From: Phycisphaerae bacterium
GTDB lineage: Bacteria > Planctomycetota > Phycisphaerae > Sedimentisphaerales > Anaerobacaceae
NCBI GenBank assembly: GCA_018055905.1
Contig: JAGPGT010000008.1
Span: 1 to 34,899 of the forward strand
Length of the DNA: 34,899 nucleotides
Direction: 5' to 3'
Of this stretch, positions 21,896 through 31,970 are shown piece after piece (the stretch's first letter is position 1; every line of letters begins with the position of its first letter). The translations under genes and the position numbers were made by a program. The notes beneath the pieces were generated by a model. That model was given only the letters and a program-made list of their open reading frames with translations. It made no database searches and was not told the origin of the DNA.

Positions 21896-21930
21896 CCGTG
21901 TTGCGCACGGGATTGTGATGATGTGAGAGC

Positions 21931-21969
21931 GATTCGCCGGCGGGTTTTCCTTGAATCCGTCGGCGAATC
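21931..21969. repeat. Inverted repeat overlapping the iorA promoter
   Basis: GATTCGCCGGCGG (21931-21943) and CCGTCGGCGAATC (21957-21969) pair over 13 positions with one mismatch around a 13-base centre. The centre and right arm contain the -35 box and spacer of the iorA promoter. It lacks a T-run, so it is a poor terminator for the porin gene and could be an operator. Confidence 0.45.
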
Positions 21970-21979
21970 GCCTTATAAT
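21951..21979 (+). promoter_or_regulatory. Near-consensus promoter for a leaderless iorA transcript
   Basis: TTGAAT (21951-21956) and the perfect TATAAT (21974-21979) are spaced by 17 bases. The expected start, about 7 bases after the -10 box, is 21986 or so, only about three bases before the iorA ATG at 21989. No ribosome site is present between the promoter and the ATG, so a leaderless mRNA is predicted. Confidence 0.65.
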
Positions 21980-21988
21980 CACACGATT

Positions 21989-23545
21989 ATGGCTAAGAAA
22001 GACACACTCAATCAAGCGTTGCTCTCCGGAAATGAAGCCTTGGCGCGGGGCGCCTATGAAGCGGGTCTGAAAGTCGCCTGCGCCTACCCCGGCACCCCCT
22101 CCACAGAGATCCTCGAGGTTCTGTCGGAATACCCGGAGGTCGATACCCAGTGGTCGGTGAATGAAAAAGTCGCCTTCGAGGTGGCGATGGGGGCCGCAAC
22201 GGCCGGCGTCCGTAGCCTCTTCGCCTGCAAGCACGTGGGGCTCAACGTCGCGATGGACCCGCTGATGACCGCCTCTTATACCGGTATTCTGGCGGGGTTC
22301 GTCATCGTCGTGTGCGACGACCCCGGCATGCATTCCTCGCAGAATGAGCAGGACACCCGCTGGGTGGCCCTGTATTCCAAGATACCCATGCTTGAGCCCT
22401 CCAGTCCCGCGGAGGCTCGGGAGTTCGTGAAAGAGGCGTTCGCGATGAGCGAACGATTCGATACGCCGGTGATGCTGCGAATGACGACCCGTATCTCCCA
22501 CACGAAGGAGAACGTCTCGGTCGGCGAACGAAAGGTCCCTGAGCCACCGATATTTGAGCGAAATGCCCCCAAGTACGTCATGGTGCCGGGGCACGCGTAT
22601 CAGCGGCACATCTTCGTCGAGCAGCGGCTCGTCAAGCTCGCGGCGCTCGCGGAGAAAACCCGCCTGAACAGAATCGAAAAAGGCGACGGCAAGCTCGGTT
22701 TCGTCGTCTCAGGCGTCACTTACCAGTACGTCAAAGAGAACTATCCCGATGCCTCGTACCTCAAGCTCGGAATGAGCTACCCGTTCTGTGACGAGAAAAT
22801 CCGCCGTTTTGCCAAGAGCGTCAAGAAGCTCGTCGTCGTCGAAGAACTGGATCCCTTCCTCGAAGATCACATCAAGACCTTAGGCGTCAAAGTCGCCGCC
22901 AAGGATCCGTCATTTCGCATCGGGGAACTGACGCCGGAACTGATCCCCGACGTGGTCGCGGGCAAGGCCAAGGTGGAGCAGCGGTCGGCCAAACGCAAGC
23001 CCCGTCTGTGTCCCGAATGCCCGCACTGGGCTTCGTTCGCCGCGCTCAAGAAACTTGATGCCTATGTAGCGGGCGATATCGGTTGCTACACGCTGGCCTG
23101 TCTGCCCCCGATGTCGGCTCTGCATTCGTGTGTGTGCATGGGGGCAGGCGTGACTTTCCACGAGGGGTGGCGCAAGGCCGCGCCCAACAAGCCCATCGTG
23201 GGCGTTCTGGGCGACTCGACGTTTGTTCATTCCGGCATCACCGGCCTGATCAACGCCGCCTACAACAAGTGTAAGGGGGTAATCCTCATCCTGGACAACT
23301 CAACCACCGCAATGACCGGAGGCCAGCAGCACCCAGCCACCGGCCTGACGATCCGCAACGAGCCCACGAAAAAGCTGATCCTGGAGGACGTGTGCCGAGC
23401 CTGCGGCGCCGACAACGTGGACGTCGTCGATCCCAAGAACCTGGAGGAATTCCGGGCGATCCTCGAAAAACGAATCAACGAAGATGCATTGTCGGTCGTC
23501 ATTTCCCGACATCCGTGTAAGCTGATCAAGAAGAAGGTGAGTTGA
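21989..23545 (+). CDS. iorA: Indolepyruvate:ferredoxin oxidoreductase alpha subunit, without C-terminal ferredoxin domain
   Basis: Thiamine-diphosphate enzyme that oxidatively decarboxylates aryl-pyruvates (indolepyruvate, phenylpyruvate, hydroxyphenylpyruvate) to arylacetyl-CoA with ferredoxin as acceptor. The pyrimidine-binding domain comes first (GNEALARGAYEAG, AYPGTPSTEI). The thiamine-diphosphate domain carries GDSTF (408-412) and the NN-type LDNSTTAMTGGQQHP. Proximal cluster cysteines are in LCPECPHW (C341, C344) and GDIGCYTL (C366). The 518 residues stop at RHPCKLIKKKVS, where the usual subunit (about 580-620 residues) continues into a two-cluster ferredoxin domain. That domain is absent here, and the iorB ATG follows two bases after the stop. 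The ATG at 21989 is supported by the leaderless promoter. Confidence 0.94.
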   Translation: MAKKDTLNQALLSGNEALARGAYEAGLKVACAYPGTPSTEILEVLSEYPEVDTQWSVNEKVAFEVAMGAATAGVRSLFACKHVGLNVAMDPLMTASYTGILAGFVIVVCDDPGMHSSQNEQDTRWVALYSKIPMLEPSSPAEAREFVKEAFAMSERFDTPVMLRMTTRISHTKENVSVGERKVPEPPIFERNAPKYVMVPGHAYQRHIFVEQRLVKLAALAEKTRLNRIEKGDGKLGFVVSGVTYQYVKENYPDASYLKLGMSYPFCDEKIRRFAKSVKKLVVVEELDPFLEDHIKTLGVKVAAKDPSFRIGELTPELIPDVVAGKAKVEQRSAKRKPRLCPECPHWASFAALKKLDAYVAGDIGCYTLACLPPMSALHSCVCMGAGVTFHEGWRKAAPNKPIVGVLGDSTFVHSGITGLINAAYNKCKGVILILDNSTTAMTGGQQHPATGLTIRNEPTKKLILEDVCRACGADNVDVVDPKNLEEFRAILEKRINEDALSVVISRHPCKLIKKKVS

Positions 23546-23547
23546 CC

Positions 23548-24036
23548 ATGCCCAGCAACAAGATCTACAGCATTACGTTCGGCGGAATCGGCGGCCAGGG
23601 GGTCCTCACCGCTTCGGAGTTGTGCAGTTGGGCGGCCCTGTACGCGGGCTATCACGTAAAAAAATCCGAGGTTCACGGCATGGCCCAGCGAGGCGGCTCT
23701 GTGGAGTCCCACGTACGGTTCGGAAAGCGAGTTTTCTCGCCCTTAGTCCCGACCGGTGGCGCAGATGTCCTGGTCTGTTTTTACCGGGAAGAACATCCGA
23801 GACTCAGCGTCTTCCTCAAGAAGGACGGTATCGACCTGATTGATTACCTCGACAAGGTCACCCAGGCGGTCGAGAATCCGCGGGGTGTGAACACCTGCTT
23901 GGTCGGTGTGCTCTCGACCAAGCTGCCGATCAAGGAAGAGCATTGGATGAAGGCCATTGAGACGGTTTTCAAGAACAAAGGCGTCGAAGAGAACAAGAAG
24001 GTGTTTCTGGACGGAAGGAAGATGGGGCAATCATGA
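23548..24036 (+). CDS. iorB: Indolepyruvate:ferredoxin oxidoreductase beta subunit
   Basis: Gamma-domain-type partner of IorA; the two form the aryl-pyruvate oxidoreductase. The 162-residue protein opens with KIYSITFGGIGGQGVLTAS, the GGxGGQG loop that holds coenzyme A, and contains EVHGMAQRGGSVESHVRFG, the other family hallmark. It is somewhat short (about 190 residues in many IorB). The ATG at 23548 lies two bases after the iorA stop and has GGTGAG upstream; a TTG six bases earlier would overlap iorA. Its TGA overlaps the next gene's ATG (ATGA at 24033-24036), so translation is coupled to the acyl-CoA ligase. Confidence 0.93.
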   Translation: MPSNKIYSITFGGIGGQGVLTASELCSWAALYAGYHVKKSEVHGMAQRGGSVESHVRFGKRVFSPLVPTGGADVLVCFYREEHPRLSVFLKKDGIDLIDYLDKVTQAVENPRGVNTCLVGVLSTKLPIKEEHWMKAIETVFKNKGVEENKKVFLDGRKMGQS

Positions 24037-25334
24037 TCTGGAAAGAGGACGTCGAATGTGCGACCCAGGCAGATCTCAAGGAGCTGCAATCGGGCTATCT
24101 CAGGAAGCTGATTCCCTACATCTACGACAACTGCGCCGTGTACCGGCGCAAGCTCGACGCCGTGGGGGTCAAGCCGGACCAGATCAAGTCCATCGACGAC
24201 ATCAAGCGACTGCCGATCACGACCAAGGAGGACATGCGGGACAACTACCCCTACGGCCTGTTCTCCGCGCCGCAGGACCAAATCGCCGAAATCCACGTCT
24301 CCAGCGGCACCACCGGTAACCCCACCCTTGTCGGTTACACAAAAGATGACATCAAGCTCTGGGGCGAGGTCATGGCGCGAGCCTTCTGTTGTGCGGGGGC
24401 TCTGCCGGGCGACACCATTCAGATCGCCTACGGGTACGGCCTGTTCACCGGCGGCCTCGGCGCCCACTACGGCGCCCTAGAGATGGGTCTTCGCATCCTT
24501 CCGACCTCCTCGGGCCAGACCGCCCGCCAGCTCAAGCTCATGCAAGACTTCAAGCCGCGGATCATCGCCTGCACGCCCAGCTATGTCTTGTACATGGCCG
24601 AAGAGGCCAAGGCGATGGGCATCGATCCCGCCAAAGGCAACTGGAAGATCGGGGTTTTCGGCGCCGAACCTTGGAGCGAGTCGATGCGGCGGGAGATCGA
24701 AAACGTCTGGAATATGCTCGCGACGGACATTTATGGCCTCTCCGAAATCATCGGTCCCGGCGTGGCGCAGGAATGCCAGTACAAGGATGGTCTGCACGTC
24801 TTCAGTGACGTGTTCTATCCCGAAATTCTCGACCCCAAGACCCGGGAAGAGATGCCCGAGGGTGAGCCCGGGGAACTGGTCCTCACCACGCTGACCAAGC
24901 AAGGCATCCCGTTGATCCGCTACGGCACGCGGGACATCGTCAGCATCCGTTACGACAAGTGTCGCTGCGGACGGACCAGCCCGCGGATCAGCAAGATCCG
25001 GGGCCGAACCGACGACATGATCGTCGTCCGCGGCATCAACGTGTTTCCGTCGCAGATCGAGCATGTCCTCGTGGGGATCGAGGGAACGCAGCCGCACTAC
25101 CAGATCATCGTCGACCGCCAGGCGCACAAGCTCGACGAAGTCGAGGTTCTGGTGGAGGTCGAGCAGCGGTTCTTCTCCGATGAAATCAAGCAGCTCAATG
25201 TGATCCGCGAGAAGATCCGCAAGGAAATTGAGAATGTGCTTTCGATCGGCGTGAAGGTGACGCTGGTGGAACCCAAGACCATCGCCCGCAGCGAGGGCAA
25301 AGCCAAGCGAATCGTGGACAAGCGAACTCTCTAG
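24033..25334 (+). CDS. paaK: Phenylacetate-CoA ligase family enzyme, copy 1
   Basis: AMP-forming aryl-acid CoA ligase of 433 residues, the typical PaaK length. The phosphate loop is VSSGTTGNPTLVGYT (about 89-103). YGYGLFTGGLGAHYG is the aryl-binding region, IYGLSEIIGPGVAQEC is A5, and the hinge region is RGRTDDMIVVRGINVFPSQIE. A C-terminal Lys-containing A10-like end (EGKAKRIVDKR) is present. It also carries a CRCGRTSPR cysteine pair common in PaaK. Coupled by ATGA to iorB, it most likely interconverts arylacetyl-CoA and arylacetate with AMP/ATP, allowing energy recovery from aromatic amino acid oxidation or reactivation of arylacetate. Direction in the cell is inference. Confidence 0.92.
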   Translation: MIWKEDVECATQADLKELQSGYLRKLIPYIYDNCAVYRRKLDAVGVKPDQIKSIDDIKRLPITTKEDMRDNYPYGLFSAPQDQIAEIHVSSGTTGNPTLVGYTKDDIKLWGEVMARAFCCAGALPGDTIQIAYGYGLFTGGLGAHYGALEMGLRILPTSSGQTARQLKLMQDFKPRIIACTPSYVLYMAEEAKAMGIDPAKGNWKIGVFGAEPWSESMRREIENVWNMLATDIYGLSEIIGPGVAQECQYKDGLHVFSDVFYPEILDPKTREEMPEGEPGELVLTTLTKQGIPLIRYGTRDIVSIRYDKCRCGRTSPRISKIRGRTDDMIVVRGINVFPSQIEHVLVGIEGTQPHYQIIVDRQAHKLDEVEVLVEVEQRFFSDEIKQLNVIREKIRKEIENVLSIGVKVTLVEPKTIARSEGKAKRIVDKRTL

Positions 25335-25346
25335 AGGGGGCCGTAC

Positions 25347-25778
25347 ATGAAGATCACACAGATATCGGTGTTTTTGGAGAACCGCAAGGGCAGGTTGTAC
25401 GATGTGTGCTCGCTCTTGGGTGGTCATGGGATCAACATCCGCGCGTTGACCATCGCCGAGACCGAAAGTTTCGGGGTTCTGCGGATCGTCGTGGACAAGT
25501 CCGAGTCGGCCATCAAGCTGTTGCGAGAGAATCAATTTGTCGCGAATTTCACCGATGTGGTGGCGATCGAGGTGCCCGACCAGCCCGGCGGCCTGGCCTC
25601 CATCCTCAAGATCCTCTCGGAACACGACGTGAACGTCGAGTACATGTACGGATTCGTCGAAAAATTCAGCGACAAGGCCCTGCTCGTGATGCGGTTCGAG
25701 GACACGGATTTTGCCCAGCAAGTTCTGGCCAAGCAGAAGATCCATGTCGTCACCGAGAAGGAGATCGAGGGGCTTTGA
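25347..25778 (+). CDS. Tandem ACT-domain protein, copy 1
   Basis: The 143-residue protein consists of two ACT domains and nothing else. Domain one is ITQISVFLENRKGRLYDVCS to VLRIVVD (about 3-50). Domain two is VVAIEVPDQPGGLASILKI to ALLVMRFED (about 71-117). ACT domains bind amino acids at dimer interfaces. A gene of this kind next to paaK is a recurring arrangement in anaerobes; the protein presumably senses an aromatic amino acid or aryl acid and regulates the ligase. AGGGGG lies 6 bases before the ATG. It follows paaK by 12 bases and is followed by the strong hairpin at 25777-25844. Confidence 0.9.
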   Translation: MKITQISVFLENRKGRLYDVCSLLGGHGINIRALTIAETESFGVLRIVVDKSESAIKLLRENQFVANFTDVVAIEVPDQPGGLASILKILSEHDVNVEYMYGFVEKFSDKALLVMRFEDTDFAQQVLAKQKIHVVTEKEIEGL

Positions 25779-25844
25779 GGTTTTCGAGTGGGGATTCTTG
25801 AGGGGTGACGTAGATCCCACATCACCCCTCAAGAATCGAACCTC
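25777..25844 (+). promoter_or_regulatory. Strong intercistronic hairpin between the two paaK-ACT modules
   Basis: GATTCTTGAGGGGTGA (25793-25808) and TCACCCCTCAAGAATC (25822-25837) are perfect 16-base complements around a 13-base apical region. GAGGTT (25777-25782) and AACCTC (25839-25844) extend the stem below an asymmetric internal loop; the lower arm begins inside the ACT gene's stop codon. No T-run follows, so it is not a plain intrinsic terminator. It may protect or process the upstream mRNA, uncouple the two modules, or bind a regulator as DNA. Confidence 0.7.
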
Positions 25845-25861
25845 GGTAATCGGAAATTCTG

Positions 25862-27175
25862 ATGATGGACATCCCGTTTTGGAATAGAGAAATCGAAACC
25901 GCCGAGCGGGGTCGGATCGAACAGATCCAGATCCAGCGACTGCAGGAAACCATCGGTTGGGCTCTCAAAACTCCGCTCTACCGTCGACGGCTCAGCCAAG
26001 CGGGCATCAGTTCGCCTGATGATATCAAAAGCCTCAGCGATCTGCGTCGCGTCCCCTTTACGACAAAGGACGATTTGCGGATCAGCTTTCCCAGAGGGCA
26101 CCTGGCTGTGCCCATGAACGAGGTCCTACGGGTTCATTCTTCCAGCGGGACGACGGGCATCCCGACTGTCATCTACTATGCCAAGCAGGACTTGGACAAC
26201 TGGACGGACCTGCTGGCGAGGAGCATCGTCGCCACCGGGGCCGGCCCCGGCGATGTTTTCCAGAATATGATGACCTACGGGCTCTTCACGGGTGGTTTGG
26301 GCCTTCACTACGGCGCCGAACGGGTCGGCATGACCGTCATCCCCATCGGCGGCGGCAATACGAAACGGCAGATTCAGGTGATGAAGGATTTCCAGACCAC
26401 CGTCGTACATGTCACGCCAAGTTATTTGTTGCATATCCATTCCAAGTTAGGCGAGGATGGCGTTGAGTTGAAAGACTTGGCCCTGCGAAAAGCTTTCATT
26501 GGAGCTGAACCTCACTCCGAAAACACCCGCTGCAAGCTTCAGGACCTTTTACGCATCGACGCCTATAACTCCTACGGTCTGAGCGAACTCAACGGCCCCG
26601 GCGTCGCTTTCGAGTGCGTCTGCAAGAAGGATATGCACGTCTGGGAAGACGCTTTCATCGTCGAGATCATCGATCCCAAGACGGGTGAACCCCTCCCGGA
26701 GGGACAAGAGGGCGAGGTCGTTCTGACGAACGTGGTCCGACGGGCAACGCCGATTTTGCGATATCGCACGCGGGATCTGGCGTTCCTGTACCCGCAGGGG
26801 TGCGATTGCGGCCGGACGCACAGGCGTTTGTCCCGAATCCTTGGGCGGACCGACGACATGCTGATTATCAACGGCGTCAACGTCTTTCCCTCGCAGATCG
26901 AAGAGAAGATCATGAAGATCCCCGATGTGGCTACGAACTACCAGATTCACGTCGACAAAAAGGGGGCGCTTGACCGTCTAACCGTCAAGGTGGAAATCTA
27001 TCCAAAGTTGTTTCTGGGCGAGGTCTCCACGCTCGAAGCGCTCAAGCACAGGATTGTCGAGGAACTGCGGTCTTCGATCACAATCAGTCCGGGGGTCGAG
27101 TTGCACGAGCCGGGATCGCTGCCGGTATACGAGGGAAAAGCCAAACGAGTAGTGGATGAACGGCCAAAGGATTGA
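25862..27175 (+). CDS. paaK: Phenylacetate-CoA ligase family enzyme, copy 2
   Basis: Second AMP-forming aryl-acid CoA ligase, 437 residues, a diverged paralogue of the one at 24033-25334. It shares the motif order: HSSSGTTGIPTVIYY (phosphate loop), MTYGLFTGGLGLHYG, SYGLSELNGPGVAFEC and LGRTDDMLIINGVNVFPSQIE, with the CDCGRTHRR cysteine pair and EGKAKRVVDERP end. The two copies differ through the aryl-binding region, so different acids are likely. ATG codons at 25862 and 25865 are alternatives; the ribosome site is weak (GGAA). It is 83 bases after the first ACT gene, the gap being filled by the hairpin, and 11 bases before the second ACT gene. Confidence 0.91.
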   Translation: MMDIPFWNREIETAERGRIEQIQIQRLQETIGWALKTPLYRRRLSQAGISSPDDIKSLSDLRRVPFTTKDDLRISFPRGHLAVPMNEVLRVHSSSGTTGIPTVIYYAKQDLDNWTDLLARSIVATGAGPGDVFQNMMTYGLFTGGLGLHYGAERVGMTVIPIGGGNTKRQIQVMKDFQTTVVHVTPSYLLHIHSKLGEDGVELKDLALRKAFIGAEPHSENTRCKLQDLLRIDAYNSYGLSELNGPGVAFECVCKKDMHVWEDAFIVEIIDPKTGEPLPEGQEGEVVLTNVVRRATPILRYRTRDLAFLYPQGCDCGRTHRRLSRILGRTDDMLIINGVNVFPSQIEEKIMKIPDVATNYQIHVDKKGALDRLTVKVEIYPKLFLGEVSTLEALKHRIVEELRSSITISPGVELHEPGSLPVYEGKAKRVVDERPKD

Positions 27176-27186
27176 GGCGATTGGCG

Positions 27187-27621
27187 ATGGCGAAACAACT
27201 GACGATTTTCGTCGAGAATCGGCCGGGCAGACTCAAGGCGATCTCCGAAAATTTGAACAGGAACCATATTGATATCCGGGCCTTCACGATCCAGGACCGG
27301 GGCGACTACGGCCTGCTGCGGCTTATCGTGGACAAACCCAACGACGCCTATTTGGCCTTGGCCGACGTTGGTTGTGCCTGCGCCCTCAAGGACGTGTTGG
27401 CGGTTTCGGTACCCGATGAGCCCAGCAATTTCCACAAATTAACGTCTGCTCTGGCGGCGGAGGGCATCAACATTCGCGACGCCTACGGGTTCGTCGTTCA
27501 ACCTCACAAGACCGGTATCTGTTGTATGGAGGTCGAGCAACCTCAATTGGCCAAGGCGGCCCAAGTCGCCCGCCAAGTCGGCTTCACGGTCCTTGAAGAC
27601 GAAGAACTCTACTCCTTGTGA
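27187..27621 (+). CDS. Tandem ACT-domain protein, copy 2
   Basis: The 144-residue protein has the same architecture as the copy at 25347-25778: domain one KQLTIFVENRPGRLKAISEN to LLRLIVD, domain two VLAVSVPDEPSNFHKLTSAL to TGICCMEVEQ. Residues at the ligand-binding turn (NRPGRL versus NRKGRL; DEPSNF versus DQPGGL) differ, suggesting a different or weakened second site. The ATG at 27187 follows GAGGCGA; the frame begins five codons earlier without ATG. It is 11 bases downstream of the second paaK, repeating the ligase-sensor order. Translation to the deacetylase downstream could be coupled (45-base gap). Confidence 0.9.
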   Translation: MAKQLTIFVENRPGRLKAISENLNRNHIDIRAFTIQDRGDYGLLRLIVDKPNDAYLALADVGCACALKDVLAVSVPDEPSNFHKLTSALAAEGINIRDAYGFVVQPHKTGICCMEVEQPQLAKAAQVARQVGFTVLEDEELYSL

Positions 27622-27666
27622 GATGTGGGAACGCAACCCCTGGGGCTGCATGGTTCGGAGGTGGCT

Positions 27667-28854
27667 ATGGCGGCGATGTCACGGGTGGTCTTGGCTTGCC
27701 TGTTGGGCCTTTTTCTGTCTTGCAGTTCGAGACCTATCAGGGACGCGCGTGGATCGGCGGCTTCGCGAGCCGTTTGGCCGGCGGGCATGATTGAGCAGGG
27801 TAACATTGATCTGACCAACCGGCCTGTGGTACGGAATGCCGACGGCACGGTCAGCACAGTTCGGTCGATTTCTGTCGAAATCGATGGACAGGAGGTCCTG
27901 ATCCCCACCGTCAGCGACGCAGGGTGTATACTGTCCGACGAGGAGGCGGTTCAGCAGTACCGGCGAACGGGAAAGCATCTCGGCAAGTTCAGTTCGGCGA
28001 AGGCGGCAAACCGGTATGCCAAGCGGATTCACCGAGAGCAGGAGCGGCTTGTCACGGCCAAGGGTGACGCAAGGTCGGGAGATCCGTACGCCGGGGGTAA
28101 GACGACCGACGTGCGATTCCCCTGGCCTGATGGCAAGCGGTTCGCGGTGAGTTTGAGCTTCGACGATGCACGTCCCAGTCAGGTGGACGTAGGTGTCCCG
28201 CTTCTCGACGAGTACGGCATAAGAGCGACGTTCTATGTTTCGCCATCCCGAGTGCCGGAGCGGCTCGACGCGTGGAAAGCCGCTGTGGCCGCGGGTCATG
28301 AGATCGGCAACCACTCGATGCGGCACGCCTGCACCGGGAATTTCCTCTGGTCGCGGCAAAAGGCTCTCGAAAACTATACGCTGACGCAAATGGCGAAAGA
28401 GCTGGATCAAGCGAATGTCGAGATCCAGAGGCTGCTGGGTGTTCGTGCGATGACGTTTGCCTATCCGTGCGGCCAGAAGTTCGTGGGACGCGGAAAGCGG
28501 GTCCGCAGCTATGTGCCGCTGATTGCAGAGCGGTTCACAGCCGGTCGCGGCTGGCGGGACGAGACCGCCAACGATCCGGCGTTCTGCGATCCGGCGCAGC
28601 TGTTGGCGGTAGAACTCGACGGCCTGACGTTCGAGCAACTCAAGACGCTGGTCGATGCGGCCGCCAAGCAAGGCGCCTGGTTGGTGCTGGCCGGCCACGA
28701 AATCGGCGAAAAGGGACGCCAAACGACGCGGGCCGACACGCTCAGGGCATTCTGCGAGTATGCCGCCGATGTGGAGAACGGGCTTTGGGTGGACACCGTG
28801 GCCAACGTGGCACGCTATGTGGCGGAACATCAAGCCTGCCCAAGCGGGCGTTGA
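27667..28854 (+). CDS. Polysaccharide deacetylase (NodB family) with phage-type N-terminal domain
   Basis: Predicted exported protein of 395 residues in three parts. The signal (about 4-18, VVLACLLGLFLSCSS) has a weak lipobox LSC. Residues about 40-130 form a domain with GNIDLTNRPVVRNADG, STVRSISVEIDGQEVLIPTV and RRTGKHLGKFSSAKAANRYA; I know this sequence from large phage structural proteins (from memory, not checked). The NodB barrel starts near 150: SLSFDDARPSQ supplies the catalytic Asp pair (165-167 region) and EIGNHSMRHA the two zinc His (216 and 220). AYPCG and LAGHEIG complete the barrel. GGAGG lies 5 bases before the ATG at 27667. Deacetylation of a glycan is inferred; the target is unknown. 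Confidence 0.85.
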   Translation: MAAMSRVVLACLLGLFLSCSSRPIRDARGSAASRAVWPAGMIEQGNIDLTNRPVVRNADGTVSTVRSISVEIDGQEVLIPTVSDAGCILSDEEAVQQYRRTGKHLGKFSSAKAANRYAKRIHREQERLVTAKGDARSGDPYAGGKTTDVRFPWPDGKRFAVSLSFDDARPSQVDVGVPLLDEYGIRATFYVSPSRVPERLDAWKAAVAAGHEIGNHSMRHACTGNFLWSRQKALENYTLTQMAKELDQANVEIQRLLGVRAMTFAYPCGQKFVGRGKRVRSYVPLIAERFTAGRGWRDETANDPAFCDPAQLLAVELDGLTFEQLKTLVDAAAKQGAWLVLAGHEIGEKGRQTTRADTLRAFCEYAADVENGLWVDTVANVARYVAEHQACPSGR

Positions 28855-29108: not shown

Positions 29109-29333
29109 GTGGATTTATTTACACAGGGTCGATCTACCATCGAAGCCTGTATTCGCAGGATAATTCTGAATCCTACGACATCGGATTTCGAACCAATCCC
29201 GGCGTCTCGTCCGGGCTGCTGCTTGGGGGAGTGCCAAGGCACCGCAGATATCTACGAGGGGACGGGAGCAAGGGACCGGCAACCGACGCCGAACCCTGCT
29301 CCGAAAAACGATCCAAGAGGTGGAGGACAAGTG

Positions 29334-30428
29334 ATGAAGACGAGCCGAATATCTATTCTGACAACGTACGTCCTGTTGCTGGCCGGCGCCGCGGGTGCTC
29401 AGACCGTGACGGTGCAGAACACTGCCGACTATCGAAACAACGGCTGGTTGGCCGATGTATGGTTTGCCGAGCCCGGTGCAATCCTCGACCATTATCCTTT
29501 CTGCCGCGGGTCGAACCAGGACTGGGGCTGGACTCACGATCTTACCAATTCCATCCCGCGAGGAGCCACCGGCATCCAATCCGCGACCCTATCAATCTAC
29601 GCATGGAAGATCGACCTCGAAGACGGTGAGGACGATGTAATCTATGTGTTGCCCCAAAAACCTACAATAATCACCAGCAGCGGCATTGTCCGCAATGGGA
29701 CCGAACTGGGGCTGCTCAAAAGTTACCTGGAGGCCCCGACCACAGTAGAGTGGAGTGCCGAGGGCCAAGTCAACGGTTACGAGAACTTCTGGTCGGTCAC
29801 GACGTTCGTGCTGCCGGCCGATGTGATCGAGGACTTGTGGGACAACGGCGAGTTGTATTTCCACGTCGACATCGATCAAACGGGCTACGAGGGCCTGCGG
29901 GCCACACTGATTCGTTCCGTCCTGCGGGTTACCTATTTCGCGCCGGAGCCCCAGACGCCGTCGTTGGCTGCGGTTCATCGGTTCTGGTCACCCATCACCT
30001 CGTCGCATTTCTACACAGTCAATGAGGCTGAGGTGCAGAGCTTAATCACCGAGTACGCATGGGCGTGGGTCTACGAAGGAGTCGCCTATGACGCGATGAT
30101 TACAGACGAAGATTGGAGAGCGATGCCTGTGCATCGATTCTGGTCCCCCCTGCTCAACAGCCATTTCTACACCATCGACGACGCCGAGAAGAACTACATC
30201 CTGACCAATTATCCCGCCAGTGTATGGGCCTACGAGGGAATCGCCTTCTATGCCTTCCCGGTAGGCTGGCAGCCGCTGGATGCCATGCCGGTCTACCGAT
30301 TCTGGTCGCCGCTGGTGAGCCATCACTTCTATACCATGAATGCGGCCGAGAAGGATTATCTCCTGGCGAACTATCCGCCGGAGGTCTGGACCTACGAAGG
30401 GGTCGCCTGGTACGCTTATGAGCCCTGA
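29334..30428 (+). CDS. Secreted protein with three C-terminal DUF5648 repeats
   Basis: The 364-residue exported protein starts with a signal peptide (about 1-22, TYVLLLAGAAGAQ). A beta-rich domain of about 180 residues follows, beginning TVTVQNTADYRNN and ending VLRVTYFAPEP; I do not recognise it, though its strand pattern with TLSIYAWKID and ELYFHVDID suggests a jelly-roll. Three copies of a 47-54-residue repeat follow (about 211-263, 264-317, 318-364): MPVHRFWSPLLNSHFYT, then a helix with AEK and a WAYEGIAFYA segment. These match DUF5648, found in secreted proteins and thought to be adhesive or carbohydrate-binding. GGAGGA lies 6 bases before the ATG at 29334. The frame is open 75 codons further upstream without similarity. 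Confidence 0.85.
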   Translation: MKTSRISILTTYVLLLAGAAGAQTVTVQNTADYRNNGWLADVWFAEPGAILDHYPFCRGSNQDWGWTHDLTNSIPRGATGIQSATLSIYAWKIDLEDGEDDVIYVLPQKPTIITSSGIVRNGTELGLLKSYLEAPTTVEWSAEGQVNGYENFWSVTTFVLPADVIEDLWDNGELYFHVDIDQTGYEGLRATLIRSVLRVTYFAPEPQTPSLAAVHRFWSPITSSHFYTVNEAEVQSLITEYAWAWVYEGVAYDAMITDEDWRAMPVHRFWSPLLNSHFYTIDDAEKNYILTNYPASVWAYEGIAFYAFPVGWQPLDAMPVYRFWSPLVSHHFYTMNAAEKDYLLANYPPEVWTYEGVAWYAYEP

Positions 30429-30473: not shown

Positions 30474-31796
30474 TCAGTCGCCCGAGGGGCGTTCGCTGGG
30501 ACGGGTCGGGCCGGCCGGATTTCTTGACGCACCAAGCGAATCAGGTCGCGGCGTGTCGTTTCTCCAGTAGTCGACGTGGTACGTCGCGCCGTCTTTGTTC
30601 CAGATCTTCGTGACGATGTCGATGTCTCCATCGCCGTCCACGTCGCCGAGCTGGGCGTCGTGCCAGCCTGGATTGTCGGTGTGGATCACCACCGGCGTGA
30701 ACGTCGGCCGCTCGCCGCCGGAACCGAGCCAGATCACGCCGCGTTCCTTGAGGCCTCGCGGCTTCATCGCCAGCTTTCCGTCGGATTCCATGTAGGTGTC
30801 GGGGTCCTCCTGCTCGCCCGCGAAGATGTCCAGGTTGCCGTCGCCGTCGAAATCCGCGACGCCGAGCGAGTGGAAAGAGCCCGTGCCGGGGACGTCGCCG
30901 GGAGCCGTGGGCGGGTCGGGCAGTTGGTGTCGCTCCCAGGCGGCGCCGCGGCCGAGGTTCTTCACCCAGTAGACGTGGGAGAGCCCCGTGTCGCAATCGC
31001 TGTAGACGATGTCGTTGTGCCCGTCCCCGTTCAGATCGACGATCCAGGACCGGATGCTGGGTCCATAAGACGCCTTGTCCACGCCAAGATACGGCCACTC
31101 ATGCCGGACCCACGCCCCCTCCCCCCTGCCGGGGTTTTCAAACCAGTAGTCCGGGATCACGATGTCCAGGTCGCCGTCCCCGTCGAGGTCGCCGACGCCG
31201 CGAGGGGTGATGCCGCCGTGGTTTTCCCGGCCCCGACCGATCTCTGTCCGCTTCATTTCGGCAACCGGATCGAACCAAGCGACCTCCTTGCCATGATAGG
31301 TGACGATGTCGAGTCGCCCGTCTCCGTTGATGTCGGCTGCGAGGATATCATGCCCCCCGCCTTCAAAGGGATGCGAGGACCACGGTTTGTCGGGATTCTC
31401 GGCCAGCCCGCCGGGATTCTCGAACCAGACGCGGTTAAAGACGATGTCCGGCCGGCCGTCCTGGGTGATGTCCACCGCCGCCGCTCCCAACGCATTGGCG
31501 AGACCCTCCGCTTGACCGATTGTGTGCCGCACCCAGACGACGTCGGTCTTTCGTTCAAACCAATAGGCGGTCTGCGTCTCGCGACGGGACAGAACGACGT
31601 CTAGGTCGCCGTCCCCGTCGAGGTCCAGCAGCGGAAGCCCGCCGGTCCCCCAGGACGAGCCCGGCAGCGGATCGGCGATCGTGAAGTGCATCCACTTCAT
31701 CTCTGCGGCGCCGGTTGTTGTCCAATCGGCTACCATCAGAACCCCGACGAATATGGGCAGGAGACCTGCTCTGAAATGAAGACTCCAGTTCGACAT
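30474..31796 (-). CDS. Secreted FG-GAP/VCBS-repeat beta-propeller protein
   Basis: The 440-residue protein has a signal peptide (about 1-30, LLPIFVGVLMVADWTTTGAA) and a seven-bladed-propeller repeat pattern. The Ca-binding motifs DLDGDGDLDVV, DINGDGRLDIV, DLDGDGDLDIV, DLNGDGHNDIV, DFDGDGNLDIF and DVDGDGDIDIV recur at about 50-60-residue spacing, with a degenerate DITQDGRPDIV. Such proteins bind glycans or act as secreted scaffolds; no catalytic domain is visible. GGAGG lies 7 bases before the ATG at 31796; the frame is open 7 codons further. It follows the methyltransferase fragment in the same direction as the GH140 gene, and its 3' end converges with the DUF5648 gene (45 bases). Confidence 0.9.
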   Translation of the reverse strand: MSNWSLHFRAGLLPIFVGVLMVADWTTTGAAEMKWMHFTIADPLPGSSWGTGGLPLLDLDGDGDLDVVLSRRETQTAYWFERKTDVVWVRHTIGQAEGLANALGAAAVDITQDGRPDIVFNRVWFENPGGLAENPDKPWSSHPFEGGGHDILAADINGDGRLDIVTYHGKEVAWFDPVAEMKRTEIGRGRENHGGITPRGVGDLDGDGDLDIVIPDYWFENPGRGEGAWVRHEWPYLGVDKASYGPSIRSWIVDLNGDGHNDIVYSDCDTGLSHVYWVKNLGRGAAWERHQLPDPPTAPGDVPGTGSFHSLGVADFDGDGNLDIFAGEQEDPDTYMESDGKLAMKPRGLKERGVIWLGSGGERPTFTPVVIHTDNPGWHDAQLGDVDGDGDIDIVTKIWNKDGATYHVDYWRNDTPRPDSLGASRNPAGPTRPSERPSGD

Positions 31797-31813
31797 GGAC
31801 CAACCTCCGTTTC

Positions 31814-31970
31814 TCAAAGCAAGTGGTCATCCACTGCGGCCAGGGAGGCTCCGTACATCAGCTCCAGCACCGATCCCTGGGCCGTTCTTCGCCTCCTCCT
31901 CGAAGAATGGGCGACCAAAAGTGAACTGCACATACGCATCGTACAGATGAGCAACTCGATCATAATCCAT
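31814..31970 (-). pseudogene. Truncated, frameshifted N-terminal fragment of a SAM methyltransferase
   Basis: After the GH140 stop an ATG at 31970 begins MDYDRVAHLYDAYVQFTFG, then RPFFEEEAKN. This is the typical start of a class I SAM-dependent methyltransferase. The frame then becomes nonsensical (stop at 31827), while a shifted frame from about the same point reads GSVLELMYGASLAAVDDHLL, containing the glycine-rich SAM-binding motif I (usually LELGCGTGR). That frame stops at 31814 and the next gene begins. So about 50 residues remain of a protein of about 230, with at least one frameshift and loss of everything after motif I. Confidence 0.7.

Follow-up and report, generated by a model that had tools for sequence, protein, structure and literature searches.

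How a domain of phage type came to lie inside an exported bacterial deacetylase, and what it does there, are the questions raised by the gene at positions 27667 to 28854 (plus strand) of the window, that is, the whole 34,899-nucleotide stretch of Phycisphaerae bacterium DNA that was analysed. Within one open reading frame, and in frame throughout, this gene encodes a signal sequence, a module of about 88 residues and a PF01522 (NodB) domain.

Organization of the fusion gene

The open reading frame listed for this region (27625 to 28854) begins at GTG 27625 and comprises 409 amino acids. The start of the gene is most likely ATG 27667, yielding 395 residues plus the stop codon, since the alignment with four congeners (five aligned) begins there; a GGAGG-like site precedes this ATG. 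Residues 1 to 19 (27667 to 27723) are hydrophobic and end in LFLSC, a near-canonical lipobox with Cys19, and orthologues devoid of the module carry canonical boxes of the LxGC or LSSC type (e.g., LTGC and LSSC). From this lipoprotein-like signal, the fusion protein is predicted to be lipidated. A variable first linker (27724 to 27783) leads to the module (27784 to 28053), which translates as GMIEQGNIDLTNRPVV...RIHREQERLV. These boundaries, already given correctly by the first-pass annotation, encode residues 40 to 129. The second linker (28054 to 28116) contains GDPYAGG, a motif also present in the module-free orthologues; the fusion of species G005 (loci L003 and L095) does not have it. The rest of the protein (residues 151 to 395; 28117 to 28851) is a NodB/CE4 catalytic domain.

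PF01522 matched this domain at 28138 to 28476 with an E value of 1.3e-18 and 67.5 bits, the curated cut-off being 23.1. Both the Asp pair of MT1 (FDD, D166/D167; 28159 to 28167) and the HxxxH of MT2 (HSMRH, H216/H220; 28312 to 28326) were present and were invariant across 28 orthologues, and a C-terminal GH resembling MT5 was also found. The earlier description of the module as lying between an export signal and a deacetylase with these residues in place is thus accurate. The domain is apparently intact and is a putative deacetylase. For its part, the MT3 position reads AYPCG, with the usual Arg not in place; a typical NodB1.1 has RPPYG in MT3, DW in MT4 and His in MT5, and AYPYG is the NodB2 form of MT3 (PMC10967932). 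The MT4 motif of the fusion protein is not clearly discernible. BA0330 and BA0331 are NodB-domain lipoproteins that are inactive and structural (PMC4505593), and by analogy with this precedent, together with the absence of Arg from its usual place in MT3, an inactive enzyme is possible. With the CE4/NodB deacetylases (PF01522), these two lipoproteins included (PMC4505593), the fusion protein shares its catalytic family, the metal-site residues, export and a probable lipid anchor; it differs from them in the additional phage-derived module between anchor and NodB domain, in whose stead BA0330, which has no activity, bears a fibronectin-like domain (PMC4505593). A structure prediction of the full-length protein reached a mean pLDDT of only 47, the alignment being too shallow over the NodB part.

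Upstream of the gene, positions 24033 to 27621 hold a tandem pair of genes of the phenylacetate-CoA-ligase-like (AMP-binding) and ACT-pair types, an arrangement that is conserved ahead of NodB within the genus, and these are preceded by a TPP/POR_N oxidoreductase gene (21923 to 23545). The gene set from 21923 to 27621 suggests aryl-acid metabolism. Downstream lie a gene for an exported protein with a DUF5648 repeat domain (29328 to 30428) and, on the minus strand, one for an exported FG-GAP repeat protein (30474 to 31817); the latter also matched TcdB_toxin_midN in Pfam, a match that spans the FG-GAP stretch only and probably reflects that repeat.

The module belongs to a conserved phage domain

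A tblastn search of the 90-aa module against 50,697 phage records returned 19 records with 55 to 64% identity over at least 96% of the query (E values of 9e-24 to 4e-30), a similarity far above chance. The matching proteins were annotated as structural, head or DNA transfer proteins, with one IVP-C-like protein among them; the DNA transfer protein of Bas106 and the head protein of SPN1S bear the same module at 57 to 59% identity. A relative of the module was encoded in at least 111 IMG/VR stretches. The proposal that it is a phage domain, mostly of virion proteins, is therefore borne out by both collections, and the matches were clearly not limited to bacterial deacetylases.

In an alignment of 57 module copies, nine columns were invariant, all of them retained by the module of the window, and some 23 were nearly invariant. 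The near-invariant polar residues among these sequences are N7, D9, R13, D20, T25, R27, T62, K64, H65, K68 and H83; two of the three fused modules have Arg in place of K64. AlphaFold2 predicted the module with confidence (pLDDT 86.6, pTM 0.77) as a small alpha/beta domain, and Foldseek searches of BFVD with this predicted fold gave a match with an E value of 1.2e-11 and a TM score of 0.95. All BFVD matches below 0.001 were viral, by the nature of the library, and came mostly from named phages.

No significant match to the module was found in the PDB, either by sequence or by predicted fold, and no model of Pfam, PHROG or NCBIfam covers it; phrog_19074 was matched weakly by two of the 57 members (E value of 0.0018). 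The wall-binding families LysM, SH3b, SPOR and PG_binding likewise gave neither a Pfam match nor a solved-fold match, and none of the 57 members matched the LPD models of Pfam at an E value of 0.1. A literature search found no report on the module motif or on such a fusion.

The pairwise dN/dS values among the three fused species were 0.085, 0.138 and 0.181 for the module and 0.089, 0.175 and 0.143 for the NodB domain. The signal and linkers gave values of 0.26 to 0.73, and those of the first linker, computed together with the signal, ranged from 0.28 to 0.68. The module is constrained as tightly as the enzyme, under purifying selection.

A phage domain in an old bacterial gene

In all nine congeners, of which six lack the module and three have it, the NodB orthologue was found at one and the same locus, and the ACT-pair gene immediately upstream (27190 to 27621, plus strand), our syntenic marker, adjoined it in all congeners (eight searched). 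Orthologues are 64 to 89% identical within the genus and the nearest genera, and those in other genera of the family are also devoid of the module. The empty site is preserved: SCSSRPIRD-[module]-GDPYAGGKTTDVRFPWPDGKR of the window corresponds to SSCHPLSVDRSPQADPYAGKSVPSTRFPWPDGRR in G004. The module was present in 3 of 89 genomes of the family, in 3 of 397 sampled from the class (all with this same fusion) and in 1 of 392 in a sample of the phylum, always at this locus. In a phylogeny with phage sequences, the three fused modules formed one clade (99/98) inside the phage module diversity, the nearest phage module being that of L014, a virion protein with an SLT transglycosylase domain.

These data bear on two further readings of the fusion. 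The window genome is a fragmented draft of 352 contigs, so that a phage contig might have been joined to a bacterial gene by the assembler; however, the insertion point is identical in three separately assembled species whose genomes differ by 10 to 20% in protein sequence, which already contradicts an artefact and leaves it a negligible probability. That a phage delivered the entire gene, as the first-pass annotation had entertained, is very improbable. The module is phage-like and some phages do encode distant NodB proteins, but these are less than 27% identical to the NodB part in the phage records, a pattern scan of IMG/VR yielded no relative of it, and module-free syntenic orthologues occur throughout the genus and in other genera, so this reading is contradicted as well. 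Given those orthologues and the lack of a close viral relative of NodB, it was the domain and not the gene that would have moved from phage to bacterium. Judging from the sequences compared, the NodB gene is bacterial, long established and conserved in synteny, and capture of a phage domain by it is very probable.

The GC3 of the module equals that of the host genes, and composition therefore shows no sign of a recent arrival. The fused species sit in a five-species clade together with two unfused ones, and the branching order within it was not resolved; because of this, the module may have been gained once and lost later, or it may have passed laterally from species to species. A clade of the three fused species is mildly disfavoured by the NodB tree (p-AU 0.048) and not by the upstream genes (p-AU 0.20). 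Between G001 and G005 the synonymous divergence was 0.48 for the module and 0.98 for NodB (65 sites only), a faint hint of module exchange between species.

Phage proteins carrying the module

Across 90 loci, the module was found alone, in proteins of about 107 to 130 aa, or at the N terminus, in the middle or at the C terminus of proteins of up to about 1,790 aa. It had been described as repeated within phage proteins; a single copy per protein was found in every locus examined. Stand-alone genes include L023:4920-5282, L031:4890-5282, L041:3666-4007, L086, L088 and L090, among others, and the stand-alone copies examined adjoin portal, head-closure, head-tail adaptor, connector, tail or terminase genes. 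In the large, injected polyvalent phage proteins L077:4905-10262 (with DarB-like and ParB parts) and L056:4932-8795 (LPD38) the module is the N-terminal domain. Both are of the kind described for phage polyvalent proteins and their LPD domains (PMC5512222); the module differs from the latter in that no Pfam model, LPDs included, matched it, and in its presence here in a cellular enzyme. Besides two Planctomycetota fusions, ten of the loci lie in bacterial genomes, and most of these match viral-contig proteins over much of their length; L006, L010, L012 and L013 match them only partially and are not proved to be prophage.

The long carriers were dereplicated to 37 and compared with 65 long neighbouring ORFs. 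A peptidoglycan-cleaving Pfam domain was identified in 8 of the 37 (up to 11 by Pfam tallies) and in none of the 65 neighbours (Fisher p 1.8e-4 for 8/37 against 0/65). SLT domains occurred in L014, L038 and L065, that of L038 together with M15 (both read across from its scanned relative L035), and the remaining wall-cleaving carriers were L010 (VanY), L064 (GH108), L083 (CHAP), L093 (tail lysozyme) and L073 (VgrG3-like). The module of the fusion protein is the one carried by phage ejection or internal virion proteins that bear SLT, M15, CHAP or lysozyme domains, and by their kin. These carriers are virion proteins; in the fusion protein, the module is paired with a NodB domain of the host that follows a signal sequence. 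The association with wall-cleaving domains is real in this sample but confounded, because the carriers are ejection proteins.

Possible roles of the module

We propose that, in a single planctomycete genus, a lipoprotein deacetylase that already existed and was passed on vertically acquired, in frame and within its linker, a phage virion or ejection domain of about 88 residues, and that purifying selection has retained the phage-conserved residues of this domain. The lipid would anchor the protein to the envelope, and the module would bind peptidoglycan or an associated glycan as an envelope-contact domain, thereby holding the NodB domain on its substrate; phage modules would do likewise for the peptidoglycan-cleaving domains alongside them. 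Taken as a whole, that a captured domain kept by selection acts as an envelope-contact module in a deacetylase has close to an even chance. Wall or glycan binding, with a putative ligand, is our best guess at a somewhat less than even chance, and it is favoured because the module is joined in the host to a surface glycan enzyme and occurs in phages in a setting where wall-cleaving enzymes are enriched. Several observations count against it: the link between carriers and wall-cleaving domains may reflect ejection proteins only, the module is also N-terminal in the DarB-like and LPD38 polyvalent proteins (L077 and L056) and forms stand-alone genes of 107 to 130 aa near portal, connector or terminase genes, settings for which a wall binder would have no obvious need, two close congeners do without the module, and NodB-domain lipoproteins can be inactive, as are BA0330 and BA0331 (PMC4505593).

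Part of this evidence is shared by a rather unlikely reading, namely, that the phage module is a protein-protein domain of virion assembly or ejection that serves in the bacterium as a folded spacer or an interaction or oligomerisation domain and not as a glycan binder. The carriers are united less by a wall-cleaving domain than by their association with virions or virion gene clusters, with stand-alone copies beside portal, connector and terminase genes, polyvalent DarB-like carriers and a position that is free within the protein; yet a mere spacer should not retain phage-specific polar residues at a dN/dS of about 0.1. Those same residues, many of them near-invariant across the 57 sequences, could instead belong to a small catalytic domain working in the envelope beside NodB, but its small size, the lack of a catalytic fold match and the Arg at K64 in two of the three fused modules make this improbable. 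Quite doubtful, finally, is an anti-phage decoy, in which a copied virion domain, tethered to the membrane, would compete with incoming ejection proteins, much as lipoproteins of superinfection exclusion act. The lipoprotein topology and the patchy presence among congeners are compatible with it, and Ltp-type lipoproteins participate in superinfection exclusion (PMC3952083); against it, the deacetylase to which the module is fused is conserved and housekeeping-like and lies at a metabolic locus, and the module evolves more slowly than is typical of arms-race decoys.

Significance of the fusion

Both halves of the protein are of known kinds, a NodB enzyme and an exapted phage part; neither their combination nor a named family for the module was found described in the libraries and papers searched. 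In mobile-element exaptation by prokaryotes (reviewed in PMC8987985), as here, a phage part is taken over by the host and retained under purifying selection; what has been placed in a host enzyme here is a single small virion domain and not an entire phage gene or particle. The locus offers a clean, datable transfer of such a domain into a cellular enzyme, with sister species preserving the empty site. Its soluble bacterial context provides a handle for testing the ligand of a highly conserved, library-unnamed phage domain away from the virion. We tentatively suggest that an undescribed, widespread phage domain that touches the envelope during ejection may have been exapted by a planctomycete lineage for targeting a deacetylase to its substrate. 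If the module does bind the wall, this would explain how many ejection proteins may position their wall-cleaving domains.
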